A stretch of DNA of 55,348 bases from an uncultured Chloroflexus sp. (GTDB taxonomy: Bacteria; Chloroflexota; Chloroflexia; Chloroflexales; Chloroflexaceae): positions 1-55,348 of the forward strand of contig NZ_CALFBQ010000031.1 in NCBI RefSeq assembly GCF_937951745.1, in the 5' to 3' direction. Positions 21,032-35,677 of the stretch are shown here, piece by piece; within the stretch, counting starts at the first letter, position 1, and every line of letters starts with the position of its first letter. The position numbers and the translations under genes were made by a program. The notes beneath the pieces were generated by a model, which was not told the DNA's origin, ran no database searches, and saw only the letters and a program-made list of their open reading frames with translations.

Positions 21032-21991
21032 ATGATGCAACGGCTTGCGCAAGCGGCAAAGATCGGCATCGGCATATGGATGGCCGGCGTGATCATTGCT
21101 ACCTTTCTGATTGTGCCGCAGTATGAAGGGCTGGGCGAAGCCGGGCGAATTGTGATCGTGCATGTACCGACAGCGTGGGTCAGTGTCATTGCCTTTACGA
21201 TCTCGGCAATCTTTAGCGGATTGTACCTCTGGCGGCGACGCGCGCAAGATGATCATCTTGCGGTGGCGGCTGCCGAAGCCGGTCTGCTCTTTACGATTCT
21301 TGCTACCGTTACCGGCATGATCTTCTCGCAAGTGGCATGGGGCATCTTCTGGAATTGGGATCCGCGCCAGACCTCGATCTTCGTGCTCTTGTTGATCTAC
21401 GCCGCTCTGTTTGCGCTGCGCGCTGCGATCGATGATGTTGACCGGCGGCGGCAACTGAGCGCCGTCTACTCACTCTTCGCCTTTGTTACCATGCCGTTCC
21501 TTTTCTTCGTCGCGCCACGCATCGCTGATAGCACGCTGCATCCTAATTGTGCGTTCATCCAAGGCAGCAACTGCGATGGCGTGGTGCTTGAGGTGGGTAA
21601 AGTCGGGCTGATTGGCGACCAAAAGGTGCAATTGCTCGGCCTCGAACGGCAAGGTAATCTGATTGTCGCCGAAGTGAAGGTCAGCACGCCGGGCTTGCAG
21701 CAAGAAGCCATCCTGTATCCGAGCTTCGACCTCGTAGATGGCGGGATGGCGGCGCGGCCTGAATTCCCCGGTTCGCGGTTCCAATTGGGCCTTGAGGAAT
21801 ACGATGCTGCTACTGGCGCAGTGCGGCTCAATATGGAAGCGCCGGGCACCCAACTCTTGGAAAATCGGCGGACGCTGTACACTTTCCTTGCCGCCAACCT
21901 TGGCTTTACCGCACTCTTCTTCTGGATGTTGCAAGTTCGTTCACTGGTGTTGAATGTGCAGTGGGCAGTAGCGCAACGCGGGAGGGCATAA
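21032..21991 (+). CDS. ccmC: cytochrome c biogenesis heme exporter protein CcmC (with enlarged outer loop)
   Basis: A 319-residue heme-handling membrane protein of System I cytochrome c maturation; CcmC loads heme onto CcmE. Helices run from residue 10 to 165, with the tryptophan-rich motif WGIFWNWDPRQT at 103-114 and candidate heme-ligand histidines H44 (VHVPTAW) and H170 (DSTLHPN). Between the penultimate and last helices is a polar segment of about 110 residues (about 171-280), including IGDQKVQLLGLERQG. Usual CcmC proteins (about 220-250 residues) lack it. First gene of the ccm operon; TAA is 2 bases before the next start. Confidence 0.88.
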   Translation: MMQRLAQAAKIGIGIWMAGVIIATFLIVPQYEGLGEAGRIVIVHVPTAWVSVIAFTISAIFSGLYLWRRRAQDDHLAVAAAEAGLLFTILATVTGMIFSQVAWGIFWNWDPRQTSIFVLLLIYAALFALRAAIDDVDRRRQLSAVYSLFAFVTMPFLFFVAPRIADSTLHPNCAFIQGSNCDGVVLEVGKVGLIGDQKVQLLGLERQGNLIVAEVKVSTPGLQQEAILYPSFDLVDGGMAARPEFPGSRFQLGLEEYDAATGAVRLNMEAPGTQLLENRRTLYTFLAANLGFTALFFWMLQVRSLVLNVQWAVAQRGRA

Positions 21992-22262: not shown

Positions 22263-22682
22263 ATGGCTGTCGCAACCACTCCAGTTCGCCGTGGCCTGAA
22301 TATCAAGCCGCTACACATTGTCGGGCTTGGTATCATTCTGTTGGCCGTTGTGTACGGTTTTTTCGGCTTCCAAGACGGGTTCCGCGCCTATACCACCAGC
22401 GTTGATGAGGCGATGCGCAGCACGCGCAGCGTGCAACTGGCTGGCTTCCTCGGTAGCACCGGCGAGATGGATGCCCAAGGCCGGTTTACCTTTCTGCTCC
22501 AAGATGAACATGGTAAGCTGATCAAGGTCATCTCTGACGATCCGCGCCCGGCTAATTTCGAGCAGGCGATTAGCATTGTGGCAATTGGCCGCTATGATCC
22601 GGCTGAGCAGGCATTTATGGCCGATGATCTCCTCGTCAAGTGCCCGTCGAAATATCAAGAGATGAATCAACCGAAACCGTAA
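22263..22682 (+). CDS. ccmE: heme chaperone CcmE, CxxxY variant
   Basis: A 139-residue periplasm-facing heme chaperone. One N-terminal anchor (about 17-36) is followed by an OB-fold barrel (about 55-125: SVQLAGFLGSTGEMDAQGRF, FLLQDEHGKLIKVI). In most CcmE proteins a histidine in HxxxY binds heme covalently. Here the motif is C127-P-S-K-Y131, that is CxxxY, as reported for CcmE of some archaea and sulfate reducers. GGAAAGG precedes ATG 22263. It transfers heme to apocytochromes through CcmF, encoded next. Confidence 0.92.
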   Translation: MAVATTPVRRGLNIKPLHIVGLGIILLAVVYGFFGFQDGFRAYTTSVDEAMRSTRSVQLAGFLGSTGEMDAQGRFTFLLQDEHGKLIKVISDDPRPANFEQAISIVAIGRYDPAEQAFMADDLLVKCPSKYQEMNQPKP

Positions 22683-22745: not shown

Positions 22746-25139
22746 ATGTATTTCTTCGGTACGTTCTTGCTCATAGCTAGCCTTGGCATGACCTTGCTGG
22801 CTGCGATTGGCTATGGCCTCGTGCTGCGCGGGCAGCGATCTGCACTTAGCTATGCCCGGTTTGGCGTGTACGCCGCACTGGCCGGCGTCCTGATGTCATG
22901 GACGTTGCTGATAACGGTGTTTATCGCGCGCCGCTTCGATCTCGATTACGTGTACAACTATAGTTCGCGTGATCTAGAGTTCTTCTTCACCATTGCCGCC
23001 AGTTGGGCCGGACAGCCGGGCAGTTTTATGATCTGGCTGCTATGGGGGGCGATCGTAAGCGTGTTGTTGGTGCGCCGCACGAAGCACTTTGAGCCGTATG
23101 TGCTGCTGGTGGTGATGGTTATTCAAGCGGCGATTATCGGTTTTGTGCTGGTGCTCAACCCGTTCCAGCCCCTCGTCGATCCTTCGACCGGGGTAGCCCT
23201 CAATCCCAGCGATGGACGCGGCCTCAACCCGCTGCTGCACAATTTCTGGATGATTATTCATCCGCCGATCCTGTTTGTCGGCTATGCGTTGGCCATGATT
23301 CCCTTCGCGTTTGCGCTAGCGGCTCTGTGGCGGCGTGACTACGATACGTGGGTTCAGCGCGCTCTACCATGGACGCTCTCAGGATGGGCGTTTTTGGGCT
23401 TGGCCCTGCTGCTCGGCGGCTATTGGGCCTACGAAACGCTCGGTTGGGGAGGCTACTGGGGCTGGGATCCGGTCGAGAACTCCTCGCTGGTGCCGTGGCT
23501 GATTCTGACAGCGCTTATCCATGGGATGCTGGTGCAGCGTACCCACGGCGGCCTGCGCAAGACCAATCTGGTCTTGGGGGTTGCTACCTATATTACAGTT
23601 TTCTACGCGACCTTCATGACCCGCAGCGGCGTATACGCCAACTTTTCAGTCCACTCATTTGTGGCTGAAGGGATTTTTGAAGGATTGGTTGGCTTTCAGA
23701 TCGTCTTGCTTGCGCTTGCGGTCATCTCACTCCTTATGCGCTGGAACGATATTCCCTCCCGCCCGCTGAGCGAGAAGTTCTTCTCACGCGATAGCTTCTT
23801 TGTGCTGGCCATCATCACGATTGTGATAACCGCGCTGGTGGTTGGGATCGGCACTTCGATGCCGGTCATCTCGGCTATTCCCGGCGTCGGCCACACCTTG
23901 CAAGAGTGGATGGGGCGCTACTTCGAACTCGATGACGGCACCCTTATGAATCCGCAAGCCCAGCCGTTTGCAGACGGTCGCTTCTCGCTGGCGCCCACTT
24001 TCTACCAACGTACCGTGCCACCGCTTGGGGTGGTGGCAATCGTGCTCTTGATCATTGGCCCGTTGCTAGGCTGGCGCGATGCGAACCTGAGCCATTTACT
24101 GCGCGCCTTGCGCTGGCCGGCGGTATTGGCGGTAGTTGCCGCAATTGTAGCCATCATCGTTGATGTGCGCGATGTGCTTGCCTTAGCTTACGTCGCCGGC
24201 GGCGCGTTCGCTTTCGGCACCAATCTGCTGATGCTAGTGCGCACGCTTCGCAGCGGCTGGCTGCGCATCGGCGGCTATCTCGCTCACCTTGGCTTTACCG
24301 TGATGGCAATCGGTATGGTCGCTTCTTCGGCTTATGCCACCCCCGATGCGCGCCTGACCCTTGCCCCCGGCGAATCGGCCCGCCTGTTCGGCTACGAGTT
24401 TATCTTCAACGGCTATCAGCTCGACGAACAGCAACGCGGCGTGCTCGATCTGACCGTTAGCGACGGTTCGCGCACCTTCTCGGCCCAGCCCTACCTCTAT
24501 TACAATCAGCGGATGGGCGCTACTATGCAGACGCCCTCGATCCACAGCTATTTCTGGCACGATCTCTATATCTCGCCAGCCGGCTACGATCCTGAGCGTA
24601 ACCCGGTCCGCCCAGTACTCGGCGTCGACCAGAGCGTGCAGATGGGGCCTTATACGCTGATCTTCCGTGGCTTTAATATCGACCGCGATGCGATGATGCG
24701 CGGCGAAGCCAAGGTTGGCGCAAAAGTGGAGGTGCTTTACGAGGGACAAACGATCGAGGTTGAGCCACGAGTCGAGGTGGTTGTCAACCCTACCACCAAC
24801 GAGAGCGAGCTGCAATTTATCCCGGTGACGCTCCCCGGTGGCCATACCCTCTATTTGCGCGAACTTGACCCCACTAACCGCATGGTGTTGCTGGAAGGTA
24901 GCGGCCCCGGTCTCGATAACTTGCCAGTCGTGCCAGCAAAAGCGGTGATTGCCGTGAGCGTGAAACCACTCGTGGTCTTGGTGTGGGTAGGCGTCATTCT
25001 GATGGTCATCGGCGGCGCCATCGCGCTGGTACGGCGCTACCTTGAGGGCAGTCTGGCCTTGGCTGGGGTGCGCGTGCGCCTACCCAAGGCATTGCCCGAA
25101 TTGGCTGCGCAATTGGGCTGGCGCGGGATTGGACGTTAA
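22746..25139 (+). CDS. ccmF: cytochrome c heme lyase subunit CcmF
   Basis: A 797-residue polytopic protein that ligates heme from CcmE to the CxxCH cysteines of c-type cytochromes. The tryptophan-rich WGGYWGWDPVENSSLVPW lies near residues 237-254, flanked by helices with conserved histidines (MIIHPPILFVGY, VHSFVAEGIFEG). A long outer domain (about 540-735) precedes the last helix (VVLVWVGVILMVIGGAIALV), as in known CcmF. No ccmA, ccmB or ccmH gene is in the window. Confidence 0.94.
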   Translation: MYFFGTFLLIASLGMTLLAAIGYGLVLRGQRSALSYARFGVYAALAGVLMSWTLLITVFIARRFDLDYVYNYSSRDLEFFFTIAASWAGQPGSFMIWLLWGAIVSVLLVRRTKHFEPYVLLVVMVIQAAIIGFVLVLNPFQPLVDPSTGVALNPSDGRGLNPLLHNFWMIIHPPILFVGYALAMIPFAFALAALWRRDYDTWVQRALPWTLSGWAFLGLALLLGGYWAYETLGWGGYWGWDPVENSSLVPWLILTALIHGMLVQRTHGGLRKTNLVLGVATYITVFYATFMTRSGVYANFSVHSFVAEGIFEGLVGFQIVLLALAVISLLMRWNDIPSRPLSEKFFSRDSFFVLAIITIVITALVVGIGTSMPVISAIPGVGHTLQEWMGRYFELDDGTLMNPQAQPFADGRFSLAPTFYQRTVPPLGVVAIVLLIIGPLLGWRDANLSHLLRALRWPAVLAVVAAIVAIIVDVRDVLALAYVAGGAFAFGTNLLMLVRTLRSGWLRIGGYLAHLGFTVMAIGMVASSAYATPDARLTLAPGESARLFGYEFIFNGYQLDEQQRGVLDLTVSDGSRTFSAQPYLYYNQRMGATMQTPSIHSYFWHDLYISPAGYDPERNPVRPVLGVDQSVQMGPYTLIFRGFNIDRDAMMRGEAKVGAKVEVLYEGQTIEVEPRVEVVVNPTTNESELQFIPVTLPGGHTLYLRELDPTNRMVLLEGSGPGLDNLPVVPAKAVIAVSVKPLVVLVWVGVILMVIGGAIALVRRYLEGSLALAGVRVRLPKALPELAAQLGWRGIGR

Positions 25140-25274: not shown

Positions 25275-25286
25275 GTTGTGAGAGCG

Positions 25287-26387
25287 ATGACCGATTACTA
25301 CGAGCTGCTGCAAGTTCACCCCAAAGCTGATGCTGAAGCGATCCGGGCAGCATACGAACGCTTACGCGAACGGTACGCGCCCGAACGGCTCGAGGGCGCG
25401 GCTGATGAGTTAGTTGAACTTGCACGGCGACGGCGCGACGAGATCGAACACGCCTATAGCATCTTGAGCGATCCGCAGCGACGGGCCGAGTATGACCGGC
25501 AATTGCACGAAACGCTCCGTCCGGCCCCGCCAGCGACGAGGGCCAAAGCTGCGGTGCCACCGCCGCCAATCGATGATGACGAACTAATCGATTTTCGCCC
25601 GCTGCCGCCGGCCCGCCGGCAAGAGCGCCCGCCGGGGTTTAATCCGCAACCATATCTCAGCTCGCAGCCGCGTCGCGATGCACCGCGCCGTGGGCGAACA
25701 GCGACGCAAGCACAACCGGTCTGGCTCATGCCATCGTTGATCGTGGCCGCCGCGACCTTTAGCATTGTGCTCGGCACGCTGATCAGTACGATGGTGGTAG
25801 CGCCGGTCGCCACCGCACCTAACACGCCTACAGCTACAATTGTGCCACCTACTCCTACATTGCGCGAAGTCTTGACCCAATTCGATGGGCAGGTCATTGC
25901 AGCGCAACAAGTGGTAGCACAAGTGCCTGATAATCCCAATGCGTGGATCAACCTTGGCAATGCGCTGTTTGACAGTGTCGTCTATGTGCGGGAACAGCTC
26001 GCGACTGGCGATGCCGAAACGCAACGCATCTATCAAGAGCGGTTGCCGCGCTGGCTTGAGGCGGTAGATGCCTACCGCAAGGCACTGGAATTGCAACCGG
26101 GCAATGATGTCGTGCGCGCCGATATTGCCGCCAGTTTGTGCTATTACGGCCTTGATACCGGTAATCCGGATCGTGCCCAAGAGGGGTTAGCCGAGGCCGA
26201 GCAAGCGTTGCGCGCTGCACCGCAAGATGCCCGCGTCTTGCTCTCGCACGGCATCTGCTTGATCGCCGTTGACCCGCCCCAAACCGAGCGCGCTCTGCAA
26301 CAATGGCGACTGGTGCTTTCAATTCCGGGGGTGAATCCGGGTTTACAATTGCAAGCCCAAATATTAATTAATGAACACAGTCAATAA
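25287..26387 (+). CDS. J-like domain, membrane helix and TPR protein (CcmI-like layout)
   Basis: A 366-residue protein; ATG 25287 is preferred over a GTG 9 bases upstream because it opens directly into the domain. Residues 3-70 are a DnaJ-like fold (DYYELLQVHPKADAEAIRAAY, ending in AYSILSDPQRRAEYD), but the HPD tripeptide needed to stimulate Hsp70 is APE (31-33). A Pro/Arg-rich linker follows, a membrane helix at about 147-171, a Pro/Thr linker (TPTATIVPPTPT), then TPR-like helices (about 195-366: NPNAWINLGNALF, AVDAYRKALELQPGND). Anchored TPRs placed after ccmF recall CcmI/CcmH-NrfG, which hold apocytochromes for the heme lyase. That role is inference from context. Confidence 0.75.
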   Translation: MTDYYELLQVHPKADAEAIRAAYERLRERYAPERLEGAADELVELARRRRDEIEHAYSILSDPQRRAEYDRQLHETLRPAPPATRAKAAVPPPPIDDDELIDFRPLPPARRQERPPGFNPQPYLSSQPRRDAPRRGRTATQAQPVWLMPSLIVAAATFSIVLGTLISTMVVAPVATAPNTPTATIVPPTPTLREVLTQFDGQVIAAQQVVAQVPDNPNAWINLGNALFDSVVYVREQLATGDAETQRIYQERLPRWLEAVDAYRKALELQPGNDVVRADIAASLCYYGLDTGNPDRAQEGLAEAEQALRAAPQDARVLLSHGICLIAVDPPQTERALQQWRLVLSIPGVNPGLQLQAQILINEHSQ

Positions 26388-26420: not shown

Positions 26421-27260
26421 ATGGCAGAGATGAACGGGCTTCATTACTATCGTCTGCTGGGGATCAATCCAGACGCCGATCAAGCAGCGATTGCGGCTGC
26501 TTACGAACAGCAACGGCAGCGGTACTCGCCCGATCGCCTTGCCGAGCTTGACGACGAATTGCAAGCGATTGCGCGCAACCGGTTGGCTGAACTCGAACGC
26601 GCCTATCAGGTGCTGAGCGACCCAGAACGCCGGCGACAGTACGATATCAGCCAAGGGTTGATCAGGCCAGCGAAACCGCTGGTGCGGCGTAGCCTTAGCC
26701 AACGCGAAGCCATCAATGCCTTCATCTTTGCCTTTCTGGCCGTTGGTCTGGTAGCTGCCGTCTGGATGTTCACCAACCGCGACACCATCCGCGGTCAGGC
26801 AATGGGTGAGGTCAACCGCCCGGCACCCAACTTTACGGCCCCCGAATTGCGTGGCGGCACCATCGAACTGGCCCAGTATCGCGGTAAGGTGGTCTTAGTC
26901 AATTTCTGGGGCACGTGGTGCGAACCATGCAAACGCGAACTGCCAGCTTTGCAACAGGCCTACGAGCAGTTTGCGGAACAGGGGTTGATGGTCATCGGTG
27001 TGAATTTGACCGATGATGAGCGCGTGCAAGGTCAAACCGTCGAAGGAGTAGCTGCATTTTTAGCCCAATATGGCGTTACCTATCCGATCGCGCTTGATGT
27101 TGATGGCAAGATCACTGAAGCCTATCGGGTATTCCCATTGCCGACCAGCTTCTTCATCACGGCTGATGGCCAGATCCGTTACGTACATATCGGTGAACTC
27201 ACCTTTACCGATATTGCCGCCCGCTTTTCTGAACTCCGGTCAGCCGGCGGCGGTCAATAA
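26421..27260 (+). CDS. J-like domain fused to a ResA/CcmG-type thioredoxin
   Basis: A 279-residue fusion. Residues 8-76 repeat the degenerate J-like fold of the preceding protein (HYYRLLGINPDADQAAI...AYQVLSDPERRRQYD), with SPD (36-38) in place of HPD. A membrane helix lies at about 98-117, then an extracytoplasmic TlpA/ResA thioredoxin domain (about 132-275) with the active site WCEPC (166-170) and the cis-proline region FPLPTSFFI. Proteins such as CcmG/ResA reduce the cysteines of apocytochrome c before heme attachment, which fits the ccm operon. The J-like domain would be cytoplasmic. Start could also be ATG 26430. The fusion itself looks unusual. Confidence 0.85.
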   Translation: MAEMNGLHYYRLLGINPDADQAAIAAAYEQQRQRYSPDRLAELDDELQAIARNRLAELERAYQVLSDPERRRQYDISQGLIRPAKPLVRRSLSQREAINAFIFAFLAVGLVAAVWMFTNRDTIRGQAMGEVNRPAPNFTAPELRGGTIELAQYRGKVVLVNFWGTWCEPCKRELPALQQAYEQFAEQGLMVIGVNLTDDERVQGQTVEGVAAFLAQYGVTYPIALDVDGKITEAYRVFPLPTSFFITADGQIRYVHIGELTFTDIAARFSELRSAGGGQ

Positions 27261-27262
27261 CA

Positions 27263-27976
27263 ATGGGTATCACTGACACCGGGGTAAACGCCATGGAGCA
27301 GCAGCAAACGATTTTAGTTGTCGATGATGACAATGGCTTGCAAGAATTGGTGCGTGTCCGGCTTGAGCAAGAAGGCTACCGGGTTCTGCAAACGACTAAC
27401 GGTCACGAAGCGATCAAGATAGTCCGCCAACAACGGCCCGACCTCGTGATCCTTGATATTATGCTGCCCGATCTTGATGGCTTGACCGTCTGCCAGCGGG
27501 TGCGCGAGTTTGCCGCTACGCCGATCCTGATGTTGACCGCCAAGACGATGCCCCAAGACATCATTACTGGCCTCGATCAAGGAGCCGATGATTATCTGAC
27601 CAAGCCATTCAACTACGATGAATTGCTGGCCCGCGTGCGGTCGCTGCTCCGACGCGTACCACCGGTCAATCGTTTGCTCACTGCCGGCAACGGCGTGCTG
27701 AGCATTGATCAGCGCAGGCGCGAGGTGCGGGTGCGCGGCGAGTTGATCGATCTGACCCCGACGGAGTATCAGTTGTTGCAAGTGCTAGCCGAACAGGTCG
27801 GCACCGTCGTGACGCACGAACAACTCTTACGCGCTGTGTGGGGCAACCAACAGGCGCGCGACAACGATTATCTCAAAGTCTATATTTGGCATTTGCGGCG
27901 CAAAATCGAGCTTGATCCGCGCCAGCCGCAACTCTTGTTGACCGAATGGGGGGTAGGGTATCGCCTCGTTCCCTAA
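27263..27976 (+). CDS. OmpR/PhoB-family response regulator
   Basis: Starts at ATG 27263, 2 bases after the thioredoxin gene, or at ATG 27293 (MEQQQTILVVDDDNG), giving 237 or 227 residues. Counting from the second start, the receiver domain has the acidic triad (DDD 11-13), phospho-acceptor D55 in LVILDIMLPDLDG, and K104 in DYLTKPF. A winged-helix DNA-binding domain follows (DLTPTEYQLLQVLAEQ, LLRAVWGNQQARDNDYLKVYIWHLRRKIE). No histidine kinase gene is adjacent, so the partner is elsewhere. Co-transcription with the ccm genes suggests, but does not prove, a link to respiratory or redox control. Confidence 0.9.
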   Translation: MGITDTGVNAMEQQQTILVVDDDNGLQELVRVRLEQEGYRVLQTTNGHEAIKIVRQQRPDLVILDIMLPDLDGLTVCQRVREFAATPILMLTAKTMPQDIITGLDQGADDYLTKPFNYDELLARVRSLLRRVPPVNRLLTAGNGVLSIDQRRREVRVRGELIDLTPTEYQLLQVLAEQVGTVVTHEQLLRAVWGNQQARDNDYLKVYIWHLRRKIELDPRQPQLLLTEWGVGYRLVP

Positions 27977-33073: not shown

Positions 33074-35330
33074 TTATTGCGGCGGCGCAATATCGAGGCG
33101 GCTGATCAACTCGTTCTGATTCCAGTCAGCCGCGTTGACACGCAACACAAAGTAGGTCGCCGTGGTTGGATCACCCTTCGCGTTGAACTTGAACGTACCA
33201 GTAATACCGGGGAAGGGCGGCAGGTTGCGGATCGCCTCGAGTACCTGCGCGCGGGTCGGCTTGCCGCCAGCGGTAATGGCCGCCGACAGAATGCCAGCCG
33301 CACAGATATTCGCGGCATCGAAGGCCTGCGCCGAGAAGGGCGGCGCGCCTTCGCCATACGCGGCCTGATAGTCAGTCGCATACTTCGCCGCCTTGGGGAA
33401 CTGGCTCACCGGCGCGGCCACCGAGGTGTAATACATCTTATCCACCGCATCACCGGCCAGCTTCACCAGCTCATCCGAATCGAGACCATCGGGGCCCATG
33501 AACTGGGCGGTGATGCCGCGATCACGAGCCTGCCGGAAGAGCGGGCCGGCCTGATCGTAGATGCCGCCGAAGAAGATCAGGTCGGGGTTGGCCGCCAAGA
33601 TTGGGGTTAGAATGGCCGAGAAGTCACTCTTCTCTTCGGTGCCTTCGAAGCCCAACACCTGAATCCCGTTGGCTTCAGCCGCCTTGCGGAAGAACTCGGC
33701 CACGCCCTGCCCGTAGGCGGTGGTGTCGTGGATGATGTAGACCGACTTGACCTTTAGCTCTTCGCGGGCGAACTTCTCGGCCACCGAGCCTTGCACGTCG
33801 TCGCGACCGACCACGCGGAAGGCCACTTCATAGCCGCCCTCGGTGATATTCGGGTTTGTATTGGCCGGCGAGACCATCGGCAGGCGGGCATTCTTGTAGT
33901 CAGGCAACGAGGCCAACGCCACACCCGAATTCAGGTGCCCAACCACACAGAGAATGTCCTGATCCGAGACGATATTCTTGGCGTTGGCCGAACCGACTTC
34001 CGGCTTCGCCTGATCATCGAACGGCACCACCTCGAACTTAACGCCCAGCGGCGACAATTGCGCATTGAGCTGCTCAATTGCCAACTCAACGGCGTTCTTC
34101 ATACCGGTGCCGAGCGCCGCTTGGCCGCCCGACAGTGGGCCTTGGGTCGCAATTTTGACCGTGCCGAGCCGGCTGGCCACCGCACCCAACTGGGCCGCTA
34201 GCGCCGCCAGATCGAACTCGGCTGCGCTGCCGGTGGCAGCCTCGCCGGGAGGCGCAATCTCAAGCCGGGTCACTAGCTTGTTGTCGTTCCAATTCGCCGC
34301 ATTCACCTGCAACACGAAGTAGGTCGCCGGATTGGGGTCACCCTTCTCATTGAAGGTATAGGTACCAGTTATACCCTCGTAACCCTTCAGCGCCTTGACC
34401 GCCGCCAGCACCTGCGCGCGGGTCGGCTTGCCGCCAGCCGCCTTTGCCGCATCAGCGATGGCAGTCAGACAGATGCCGGTTGCATCATACGCTTGCGCCG
34501 AGAAGGGCGGCGCGCCTTCACCATACGCTGTCTGATAATCTTGGGCGAACTTTGCAGCATTGGGGAACTGGCTCACCGGCGCGGCCACCGAGGTGTAATA
34601 CATCTTATCCACCGCATCGCCAGCCAGCTTCACCAACTCATCCGAGTCAAGGCCGTCGGGGCCCATGAACTGGGCGGTGATGCCGCGATCACGAGCCTGC
34701 CGGAAGAGCGGGCCAGCCTGATCGTAAATACCACCGAAGAAGATCAGATCCGGGTTAGCGGCCAAGATCGGGGTCAAAATGGCCGAGAAGTCACTCTTCT
34801 CTTCAGTACCCTCAAATCCGAGCACCTGCAAACCGTTGGCGATAGCATTCTGCCGGAAGAACTCGGCCACACCCTGTCCGTAAGCGGTGGTGTCGTGAAT
34901 AATGTAAACTGACTTAACCTTCAGTTCTTCACGGGCGAACTTCTCGGCCACGGCACCCTGCACATCGTCGCGACCGACCACGCGGAAGGCCACTTCATAG
35001 CCGCCCTCGGTAATGTTCGGGTTGGTGTTGGCCGGCGAGACCATTGCCAAGCGGGCATTCTTGTAGTCAGGCAAGGCGGCTAGCGCTACACCCGAATTCA
35101 AGTGCCCGACTACGCAGAGGATGTCTTGATCCGACACAATGTTCTTGGCGTTAGCCGAACCGACTTCCGGCTTCGCCTGATCGTCGAACGGAGCCAACTC
35201 AACCTTAAACCCTAACTCGGCGAGCGGACCCGACAATTGTTGCACTGCCAACTCGGCTGCATTCTTCATGCCGGTACCGAGCGCCGCTTGGCCGCCCGAC
35301 AACGGGCTTTGGGTCGCAATCTTGATCACC
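33074..35330. repeat. head-to-tail intragenic duplication in livK (period about 1167 bp)
   Basis: The two halves align at DNA level with an offset of 1167 bases (389 codons). For example the stretch starting at 33401 is identical for about 50 bases to that starting at 34568. Long exact runs show a fairly recent duplication or continuing gene conversion. Confidence 0.85.
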
Positions 35331-35503
35331 TGCGTGGGGGCTGCCGTCGTCGGCTGCATAGCTTCCGTCGGCGCGGGGGCCGCGGTCGCCTGCGTCGCCG
35401 GCTGCGGCGTCGGGGTCGGCTGAGCCTGCTGGCCGCCACCACAAGCGGCGAGCATCGAGGCCAGCATACCGACCAGCAACAGGAAACTGATCGAACGCTT
35501 CAT
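33074..35503 (-). CDS. livK: double-domain branched-chain amino acid-binding lipoprotein (two fused LivK units)
   Basis: An 809-residue lipoprotein from ATG 35503, with AAGGAG upstream. The signal ends in the lipobox LAAC (C21), followed by a Pro/Thr/Gln/Ala linker. Two Peripla_BP_6 (LivK-type) domains follow, about 59-420 and about 447-809, joined by an Ala-rich linker of about 26 residues. They are nearly identical: both carry SGGQAALGTGMKNA, PANTNPNITEGGYEVAFRVV, IIHDTTAYGQGVAEFF and MGPDGLDSDELVKLAGDAV. Normal LivK is about 370-400 residues. The protein captures the substrate outside the membrane and delivers it to LivHM. Having both sites on one chain may raise local concentration or allow two affinities. 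The residues lining the clefts are mostly conserved between the halves. Confidence 0.9.
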   Translation of the reverse strand: MKRSISFLLLVGMLASMLAACGGGQQAQPTPTPQPATQATAAPAPTEAMQPTTAAPTQVIKIATQSPLSGGQAALGTGMKNAAELAVQQLSGPLAELGFKVELAPFDDQAKPEVGSANAKNIVSDQDILCVVGHLNSGVALAALPDYKNARLAMVSPANTNPNITEGGYEVAFRVVGRDDVQGAVAEKFAREELKVKSVYIIHDTTAYGQGVAEFFRQNAIANGLQVLGFEGTEEKSDFSAILTPILAANPDLIFFGGIYDQAGPLFRQARDRGITAQFMGPDGLDSDELVKLAGDAVDKMYYTSVAAPVSQFPNAAKFAQDYQTAYGEGAPPFSAQAYDATGICLTAIADAAKAAGGKPTRAQVLAAVKALKGYEGITGTYTFNEKGDPNPATYFVLQVNAANWNDNKLVTRLEIAPPGEAATGSAAEFDLAALAAQLGAVASRLGTVKIATQGPLSGGQAALGTGMKNAVELAIEQLNAQLSPLGVKFEVVPFDDQAKPEVGSANAKNIVSDQDILCVVGHLNSGVALASLPDYKNARLPMVSPANTNPNITEGGYEVAFRVVGRDDVQGSVAEKFAREELKVKSVYIIHDTTAYGQGVAEFFRKAAEANGIQVLGFEGTEEKSDFSAILTPILAANPDLIFFGGIYDQAGPLFRQARDRGITAQFMGPDGLDSDELVKLAGDAVDKMYYTSVAAPVSQFPKAAKYATDYQAAYGEGAPPFSAQAFDAANICAAGILSAAITAGGKPTRAQVLEAIRNLPPFPGITGTFKFNAKGDPTTATYFVLRVNAADWNQNELISRLDIAPPQ

Positions 35504-35648
35504 AACCGATTTCTCCTTAACTTCAAACCGGTAATCTGCCGTCTCCAGCGGTTGGCTGAACGTAACGCAACGGTGCTGAATCGGGAGCGAGTCAGCGGGA
35601 CGCATCATTGCGTTGCGAACAGTTAACCACAATGGATGACAGTAGGCG

Positions 35649-35677
35649 AATATACGCGATCCGTGCCAGTTTGTCAA
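35649..35677 (-). promoter_or_regulatory. promoter of the livKHMGF operon
   Basis: On the minus strand: TTGACA (35677-35672), 17-base spacer, TATATT (35654-35649). It predicts a transcript with a leader of about 140 bases before livK. I saw no recognisable riboswitch or leader peptide in that leader. Confidence 0.7.

Follow-up and report, generated by a model that had tools for sequence, protein, structure and literature searches.

A ResA/CcmG-type oxidoreductase with a pseudo-J domain in the cytochrome c maturation cluster of Chloroflexus and its possible docking to a neighbouring pseudo-J/TPR protein

The window analysed here, a 55,348-nucleotide stretch of Chloroflexus DNA, encodes a protein in which a J domain without the HPD histidine is joined through a membrane helix to a thioredoxin domain. 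We hypothesize, with a probability of about 0.42, that this protein is a pseudo-J-bearing oxidoreductase of the ResA/CcmG type, which belongs to a stripped System I of cytochrome c maturation and most likely docks to the pseudo-J domain of the TPR protein encoded next to it. The fold, the domain order, the missing HPD histidine, the purifying selection, the gene order and the lack of CcmH and of ResB over the cut-off in 26 related genomes were all computed. The parts of the fusion protein are as follows.

26421..27260, forward strand: J-membrane helix-ResA fusion protein, 279 residues, ATG start (translation of the open reading frame, Pfam, AlphaFold2)
26442..26648, forward strand: pseudo-J domain, residues 8-76 (Pfam DnaJ, AlphaFold2 J topology)
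26526..26534, forward strand: SPD replacing HPD, residues 36-38 (translation)
26700..26786, forward strand: membrane helix, residues 94-122 (AlphaFold2 model)
26811..27245, forward strand: ResA-type thioredoxin domain, residues 131-275 (Pfam, NCBIfam, sequence and fold searches, AlphaFold2)
26916..26930, forward strand: WCEPC redox motif, residues 166-170 (read from the translation)

Pfam DnaJ matched residues 9-75 with 49.7 bits (E 4.1e-13, cut-off 27.8), and the AlphaFold2 model has helices at 8-13, 21-34, 45-66 and 68-77, i.e., the four-helix J topology, with pLDDT block means of 85-92 over residues 11-80. The preliminary description of this DNA had proposed a J fold at residues 8-76 and allowed that these residues might form none; a J fold was found. 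The same model, built from a 29-row alignment (mean pLDDT 86.4), continues with the membrane helix at 94-122 and a thioredoxin fold at 129-277, and Pfam AhpC-TSA matched residues 131-255 with 115.6 bits (E 1.7e-33). The change of HPD to SPD, the position of WCEPC and the fusion itself, in which a membrane helix links the J domain to a ResA-type thioredoxin, had thus been read correctly. C167 and C170 are the sole cysteines of the protein (read by eye), and neither they nor E173 vary in two alignments, one of 26 and one of 29 rows. Among solved structures, Bacillus ResA was the best match of the thioredoxin part, both by sequence and by fold. Pfam, the model and the fold search agree on a membrane-anchored thioredoxin fold with CXXC, as expected of a ResA/CcmG protein. 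The earlier label CcmG holds for the type of thioredoxin, but the name is loose, as the domain is closer to ResA and scores below both NCBIfam cut-offs (ResA NF002854, 139.6 of 170 bits; dsbE TIGR00385, 73 of 123.15 bits). The fusion shares the N-terminal membrane helix, exoplasmic thioredoxin fold and WCEPC motif with ResA of Bacillus subtilis and CcmG (DsbE), and differs from them in its additional cytoplasmic J domain of about 70 residues and in those subthreshold scores. By the positive-inside rule, judged by eye, the basic residues at 82-95, in front of the membrane helix, suggest a cytoplasmic J domain.

Pfam confirmed the cytochrome c maturation cluster that had been recognized before, upstream of the fusion gene, and matched a response regulator downstream.

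21032..21991, forward strand: CcmC-like protein (Pfam Cytochrom_C_asm over cut-off; NCBIfam ccmC 100.4 of 186 bits, below cut-off)
22263..22682, forward strand: CcmE with CPSKY, i.e., of the CXXXY type, C127 (Pfam CcmE; NCBIfam ccmE below cut-off)
22746..25139, forward strand: CcmF-like heme lyase (Pfam Cytochrom_C_asm and CcmF_C over cut-off; NCBIfam nrfE models below cut-off)
27263..27976, forward strand: OmpR-family response regulator, starting 2 bases after the stop codon of the fusion gene (Pfam)

The gene order in the window is ccmC-ccmE-ccmF-J/TPR-J/ResA-response regulator. The part from ccmC through ccmE, ccmF and TPR to ResA is common to four families of the order, and the response regulator adjoins ResA in every locus of the order that reaches that far, among the loci listed. 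CcmE has CPSKY at its end, and each of the 35 distinct CcmE proteins encoded in the loci carries this motif. None of the 26 genomes in the set of relatives matched CcmH (PF03918), and the E. coli positive control did give a match; ResB over the cut-off was likewise found in 0 of the 26, and its three weak matches fall within CcmF genes. CcmB was detected in 25 of these genomes, with scores over the cut-off in 24, and all 26 have a DsbD_TM/CcdA-like protein. With a CXXXY-type CcmE, no CcmH, no ResB over cut-off, and CcmB and a CcdA-like protein present, the pathway is therefore a stripped System I. The CcmB gene of the window's own genome lies on a different contig; ccmB is away from the cluster in genome G000 (C1:82581-83207) and in at least one other genome of the genus (G004), and in G002 and G006 it precedes the ResA gene by about 6 kb. 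Two further observations were made by eye in the window. The last membrane helix of the CcmC-like protein (21032-21991) is preceded by an insert that contains two cysteines and is some 110 residues long (about 165-275), and a ligand-binding-like protein of 867 residues at 33074-35677, which adjoins branched-chain amino acid ABC transporter-like genes, is made up of two tandem copies that closely resemble each other.

The gene between ccmF and the fusion encodes a second protein with a J domain.

25278..26387, forward strand: J-membrane helix-TPR protein (CcmI-like), 369 residues (Pfam and further sequence and structure analysis)
25293..25499, forward strand: second pseudo-J domain, residues 6-74, with APE at 34-36 replacing HPD (Pfam, alignment)
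25590..25628, forward strand: conserved segment DFRPLPPARRQER, residues 105-117, between the J domain and the membrane helix (alignments)
25860..26381, forward strand: TPR domain, residues 195-368, predicted to be exoplasmic (Pfam, fold search)

Its J domain scored 48.1 bits with Pfam DnaJ, and its membrane helix lies at residues 150-171. The nearest known counterpart of this protein is CcmI, which is held to chaperone apocytochrome c and is described as crossing the membrane with two helices and having a short region in the cytoplasm (PMC3884852). Similarly to CcmI, NrfG and the TPR part of E. coli CcmH, the TPR domain follows a membrane helix, probably on the exoplasmic side, and the gene follows ccmF; unlike CcmI, the protein has a single membrane helix plus a pseudo-J domain. 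Pfam TPR_CcmH_CycH reached 23.9 of 42 bits, below its cut-off, and the fold search returned generic TPR proteins, with no CcmI or NrfG among the 50 rows listed. The DYRPLPPA..ER segment at 25590-25628 is among the best-conserved stretches of the protein, and D105, P108, L109, A112, E116 and R117 do not vary in two alignments, one of 23 and one of 27 rows. It could be a binding peptide for some partner. Its first half survives in the J-less TPR orthologue of locus L125, which begins near this segment.

Both J domains, termed here ResA-J and TPR-J after the protein that carries them, are clear J domains with a non-conservatively replaced HPD, i.e., pseudo or type IV J domains in the terminology of a recent review (PMC13254874). 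The HPD histidine was found in 0 of 40 readable ResA-J domains (42 rows, two of them gapped at the motif) and in 0 of 42 TPR-J relatives, whereas HPD is present in all 18 aligned other J domains and in 23 of the 24 J matches outside the operon in six genomes, with L168 as the exception. At this site, 30 of 40 ResA-J domains still have P, and 33 of 40 have D or E. The basic residues R22, K26 and R27 in helix II of DnaJ face Hsp70; the mean net charge at the equivalent positions is -0.28 in ResA-J (n=40), +0.79 in TPR-J (n=42) and +2.72 in other J domains (n=18). The fusion protein itself has A25, E29 and Q30 there (by eye), while 41 of 42 TPR-J domains retain R at the position equivalent to R27. 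Some Hsp70-facing features therefore remain, namely this arginine in TPR-J and the P and acidic residue in ResA-J. Because the histidine is missing and the helix-II basic patch of ResA-J is mostly gone, it is unlikely that ResA-J recruits Hsp70, and the recruitment of a chaperone-like partner, which had been put forward in the preliminary description, is thus disfavoured. As a separate observation, the order has another J family with an intact HPD and a long helix II-III stretch (L106, L157, L158, L159, L161 and L167), of which L106 shows a membrane-helix-like segment by eye.

Despite the loss of HPD, the J domain in Chloroflexus is under purifying selection. Of the 28 pairs from eight genomes of the genus, few were usable, since a pair entered the count only if its dS lay between 0 and 1.5. 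The median dN/dS of the fusion protein was 0.047 in the J domain (7 pairs) and 0.027 in the thioredoxin domain (6), compared to 0.403 in the linker (13) and 0.149 in the membrane helix (11). The TPR protein gave 0.045 for J (9 pairs), 0.173 for the linker (6) and 0.028 for TPR (5).

The fusion beside ccmF, which had first been described for this window alone, was also seen elsewhere in Chloroflexus and in Oscillochloris, Chloroploca and other genera of Chloroflexales. As both the architecture and the gene order recur across genera, the fusion is not a chance event. It was found in 24 of 400 Chloroflexota genomes (match reaching the J part, query start <=10), all among the 40 classed as own, genus, family or order; the remaining 16 of these 40 include G026 with a degenerate J and G253 with J in another frame. 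Every match listed for genomes outside the order starts at position 64 or later, in a count where weak matches extend beyond those listed, 20 genomes are matchless and a very divergent J may escape. The closest named match in the wide genome scan was from Chloroflexus islandicus (96% identical; best 80 of 305 relatives). The J-bearing relatives among these best 80 have Chloroflexota titles or are titled as 'bacterium', Gracilibacteria or Singulisphaera; the contigs titled Gracilibacteria and Singulisphaera have these ccm genes too, and the CcmF tree places the latter among Roseiflexaceae. ResA frames of 206-284 residues elsewhere in the class (L135-L139, L142) showed no J by BLAST (E 0.01) or by eye.

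Both genes occur in 46 loci, and after exclusion of L032 and L042, where the TPR gene is cut by the contig end, 44 could be judged. Both J domains are present in 35 of them (in three of which one gene is in two frames), TPR-J only in 8, five of these in the Roseiflexus clade, and neither in one (L125, family f3); ResA-J alone was seen in 0. In G023, G029, G117 and G125 (the genus of L125), the matches start only from about position 80 in both proteins. The CcmF tree (35 rows) requires five state changes for ResA-J and one for TPR-J. The former indicates that the J domain of the reductase is dispensable in several lineages; as there is only one lineage without TPR-J, the fact that ResA-J never stands alone carries little statistical weight. 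In Oscillochloris sp. ZM17-4 (L044:7971-8713, L140:6267-7009), J and thioredoxin lie in two overlapping frames, which may reflect a frameshift or a sequencing error.

On the J tree, the 84 ccm J rows stand apart from 18 other J domains in 92% of 200 bootstrap trees; for the 102-row tree the support of this branch is 90 and its SH-aLRT 31, values obtained from few columns and a small choice of other J domains. Neither ResA-J nor TPR-J forms one clade (two changes each). The separation from the other J domains fits an origin of the two ccm J domains by duplication inside the operon. TPR proteins of the same general kind without J occur in other Chloroflexota (L174, L175, L184), which would fit the addition of J to an older TPR protein.

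We infer the redox role of the fusion, its electron donor, its topology, its docking and its docking partner as follows. In a stripped System I, the fusion would serve as the membrane-anchored ResA/CcmG-type thiol-disulfide oxidoreductase. Judging from its fold, motif and place in the cluster, the exoplasmic WCEPC domain would keep apocytochrome c ready for CcmF, with its CXXCH cysteines reduced, and would be recharged probably by the CcdA-like (CcdA/DsbD) protein. The cytoplasmic pseudo-J domain would not be expected to drive Hsp70 and may be retained as a protein-protein module. Its most likely dock is the sister pseudo-J domain of the adjacent CcmI-like TPR protein; such J-J docking would hold the reductase beside CcmF and beside the TPR domain, a putative binder of apocytochrome c by likeness to CcmI. 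Since the neighbour in the operon also bears a histidine-less J domain, the pair hints at a docking role more than at a chaperone switch. That the fusion dimerises with the neighbouring J/TPR protein had been named among the options in the preliminary description, and this is our preferred, possible mechanism, in line with ResA-J never being seen without TPR-J in the 44 loci. We regard it as a doubtful but real possibility that the two pseudo-J domains, neither of which would drive Hsp70, form a cytoplasmic clasp that assembles the redox enzyme and the TPR protein around CcmF. A pairing of this kind could be likened to Pam16 and Pam18, which are joined through a J-like and a J domain; Pam16, which has no HPD, is described as bound to Pam18 via its pseudo-J in a stable J-J complex (PMC13254874). 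The J fold with a replaced HPD is common to our proteins, the type IV J proteins and Pam16. Unlike in Pam16-Pam18, both J domains lack the histidine here, they are bacterial, they are fused to thioredoxin and to TPR, and the pairing is proposed from sequence.

The covariation of distances between ResA-J and TPR-J, run on 29 of 31 loci (L002 and L003 omitted) and then on all 31, was dropped as support for the J-J pairing. The partial r was 0.26 (p 0.03), and the signal disappeared without the long-branch group (five loci removed, r -0.14, p 0.91); a thinned set gave r 0.19 (p 0.12), and Chloroflexaceae/Oscillochloridaceae alone 0.10 (p 0.15).

It is rather unlikely, but least so among the alternatives, that the pseudo-J docks elsewhere, i.e., to itself in a reductase homodimer, to the DYRPLPP segment, to CcmF, to the CcdA-like protein or to the Sec machinery. 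The persistence of selection without the HPD histidine would fit such docking, as would the nearly invariant segment next to J in the TPR protein; the likeness of both J domains and the lack of ResA-J without TPR-J would be left unexplained, though shared descent could account for them. In another explanation, J is a leftover from an in-operon duplication of the 5' end of the TPR gene, a passenger without a partner which only stabilises or anchors the reductase. The five state changes on the CcmF tree, the degenerate ResA-J copies in L017, L020 and L126 (28, 27 and 18 bits) and the faster evolution of J compared to thioredoxin (mean identity in the genus 0.79 vs 0.88) speak for it. We nevertheless find it unlikely, as the dN/dS of J is 0.047 against 0.403 in the adjacent linker (7 and 13 of 28 pairs) and J scores of 59-86 bits are kept throughout Chloroflexaceae/Oscillochloridaceae.

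A general exoplasmic thiol reductase, placed among the ccm genes incidentally or for regulatory reasons, would account for the response regulator directly downstream and for the two further ResA-like proteins encoded in the same genome. In the archaeal CXXXY System I, deletions of ccmG and ccdA are reported to have left the level of holo-cytochrome unlowered under reducing growth conditions (PMC9084895), which weakens the case for an essential reductase. The conservation of the ccmC-ccmE-ccmF-TPR-ResA order in four families makes a role outside cytochrome c maturation very improbable. In all eight genomes of the genus, one ResA paralogue shows an in-frame TGA; the idea of a selenoprotein was rejected, TGA being the stop codon in the five examples read (three of the genus). 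The faintest chance is left to an SPD domain that still recruits DnaK or a divergent Hsp70 and so couples the export of apocytochrome c with its maturation, for while the J fold is kept, P and the acidic residue are mostly retained and a designed J-like sequence without HPD is said to be able to stimulate Hsp70 (PMC13254874), H is absent from all readable members, the helix-II basic residues of ResA-J are mostly absent and, according to the same review, replacement of H by Q or of D by N abolishes stimulation.

The docking hypothesis joins parts that are known one by one, i.e., ResA, the pseudo-J, the CXXXY System I and a CcmI-like TPR protein, and their paired combination is named in no title among the literature matches listed. 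Neither a J-ResA/CcmG fusion nor the cytochrome c maturation genes of Chloroflexus appear in any title among these matches, mostly non-subscription literature. J and thioredoxin are also found in one chain in the eukaryotic ERdj5/DNAJC10 and DNAJC16, where both domains lie in the ER lumen, and ERdj5 has HPD; unlike in these proteins, J and thioredoxin of the fusion are probably separated by the membrane, and its J domain lacks the histidine. The Chloroflexales system resembles the CXXXY System I of archaea and some bacteria in the CXXXY motif of CcmE and the lack of CcmH. The archaeal system, which is described as having no CcmH and is said to be without CcmI (PMC9084895), differs from the Chloroflexales set, which has a CcmI-like TPR protein bearing a pseudo-J.

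According to a 2026 review, it is enigmatic why HPD was lost and how the Pam16-Pam18 tandem works (PMC13254874). Our results add two pseudo-J domains on adjacent proteins of one bacterial pathway, found across most of an order, and since natural lineages without one or both J domains exist, the idea of a scaffold is directly testable. They also add a bacterial System I of the CXXXY type that is without CcmH and retains a CcmI-like protein, which bears on the minimal set of parts for cytochrome c maturation. If the proposed pairing is true, a J-fold module would have been wholly recruited as a scaffold of a membrane complex, and Chloroflexales would possess a prokaryotic counterpart of Pam16-Pam18 that works without any Hsp70.
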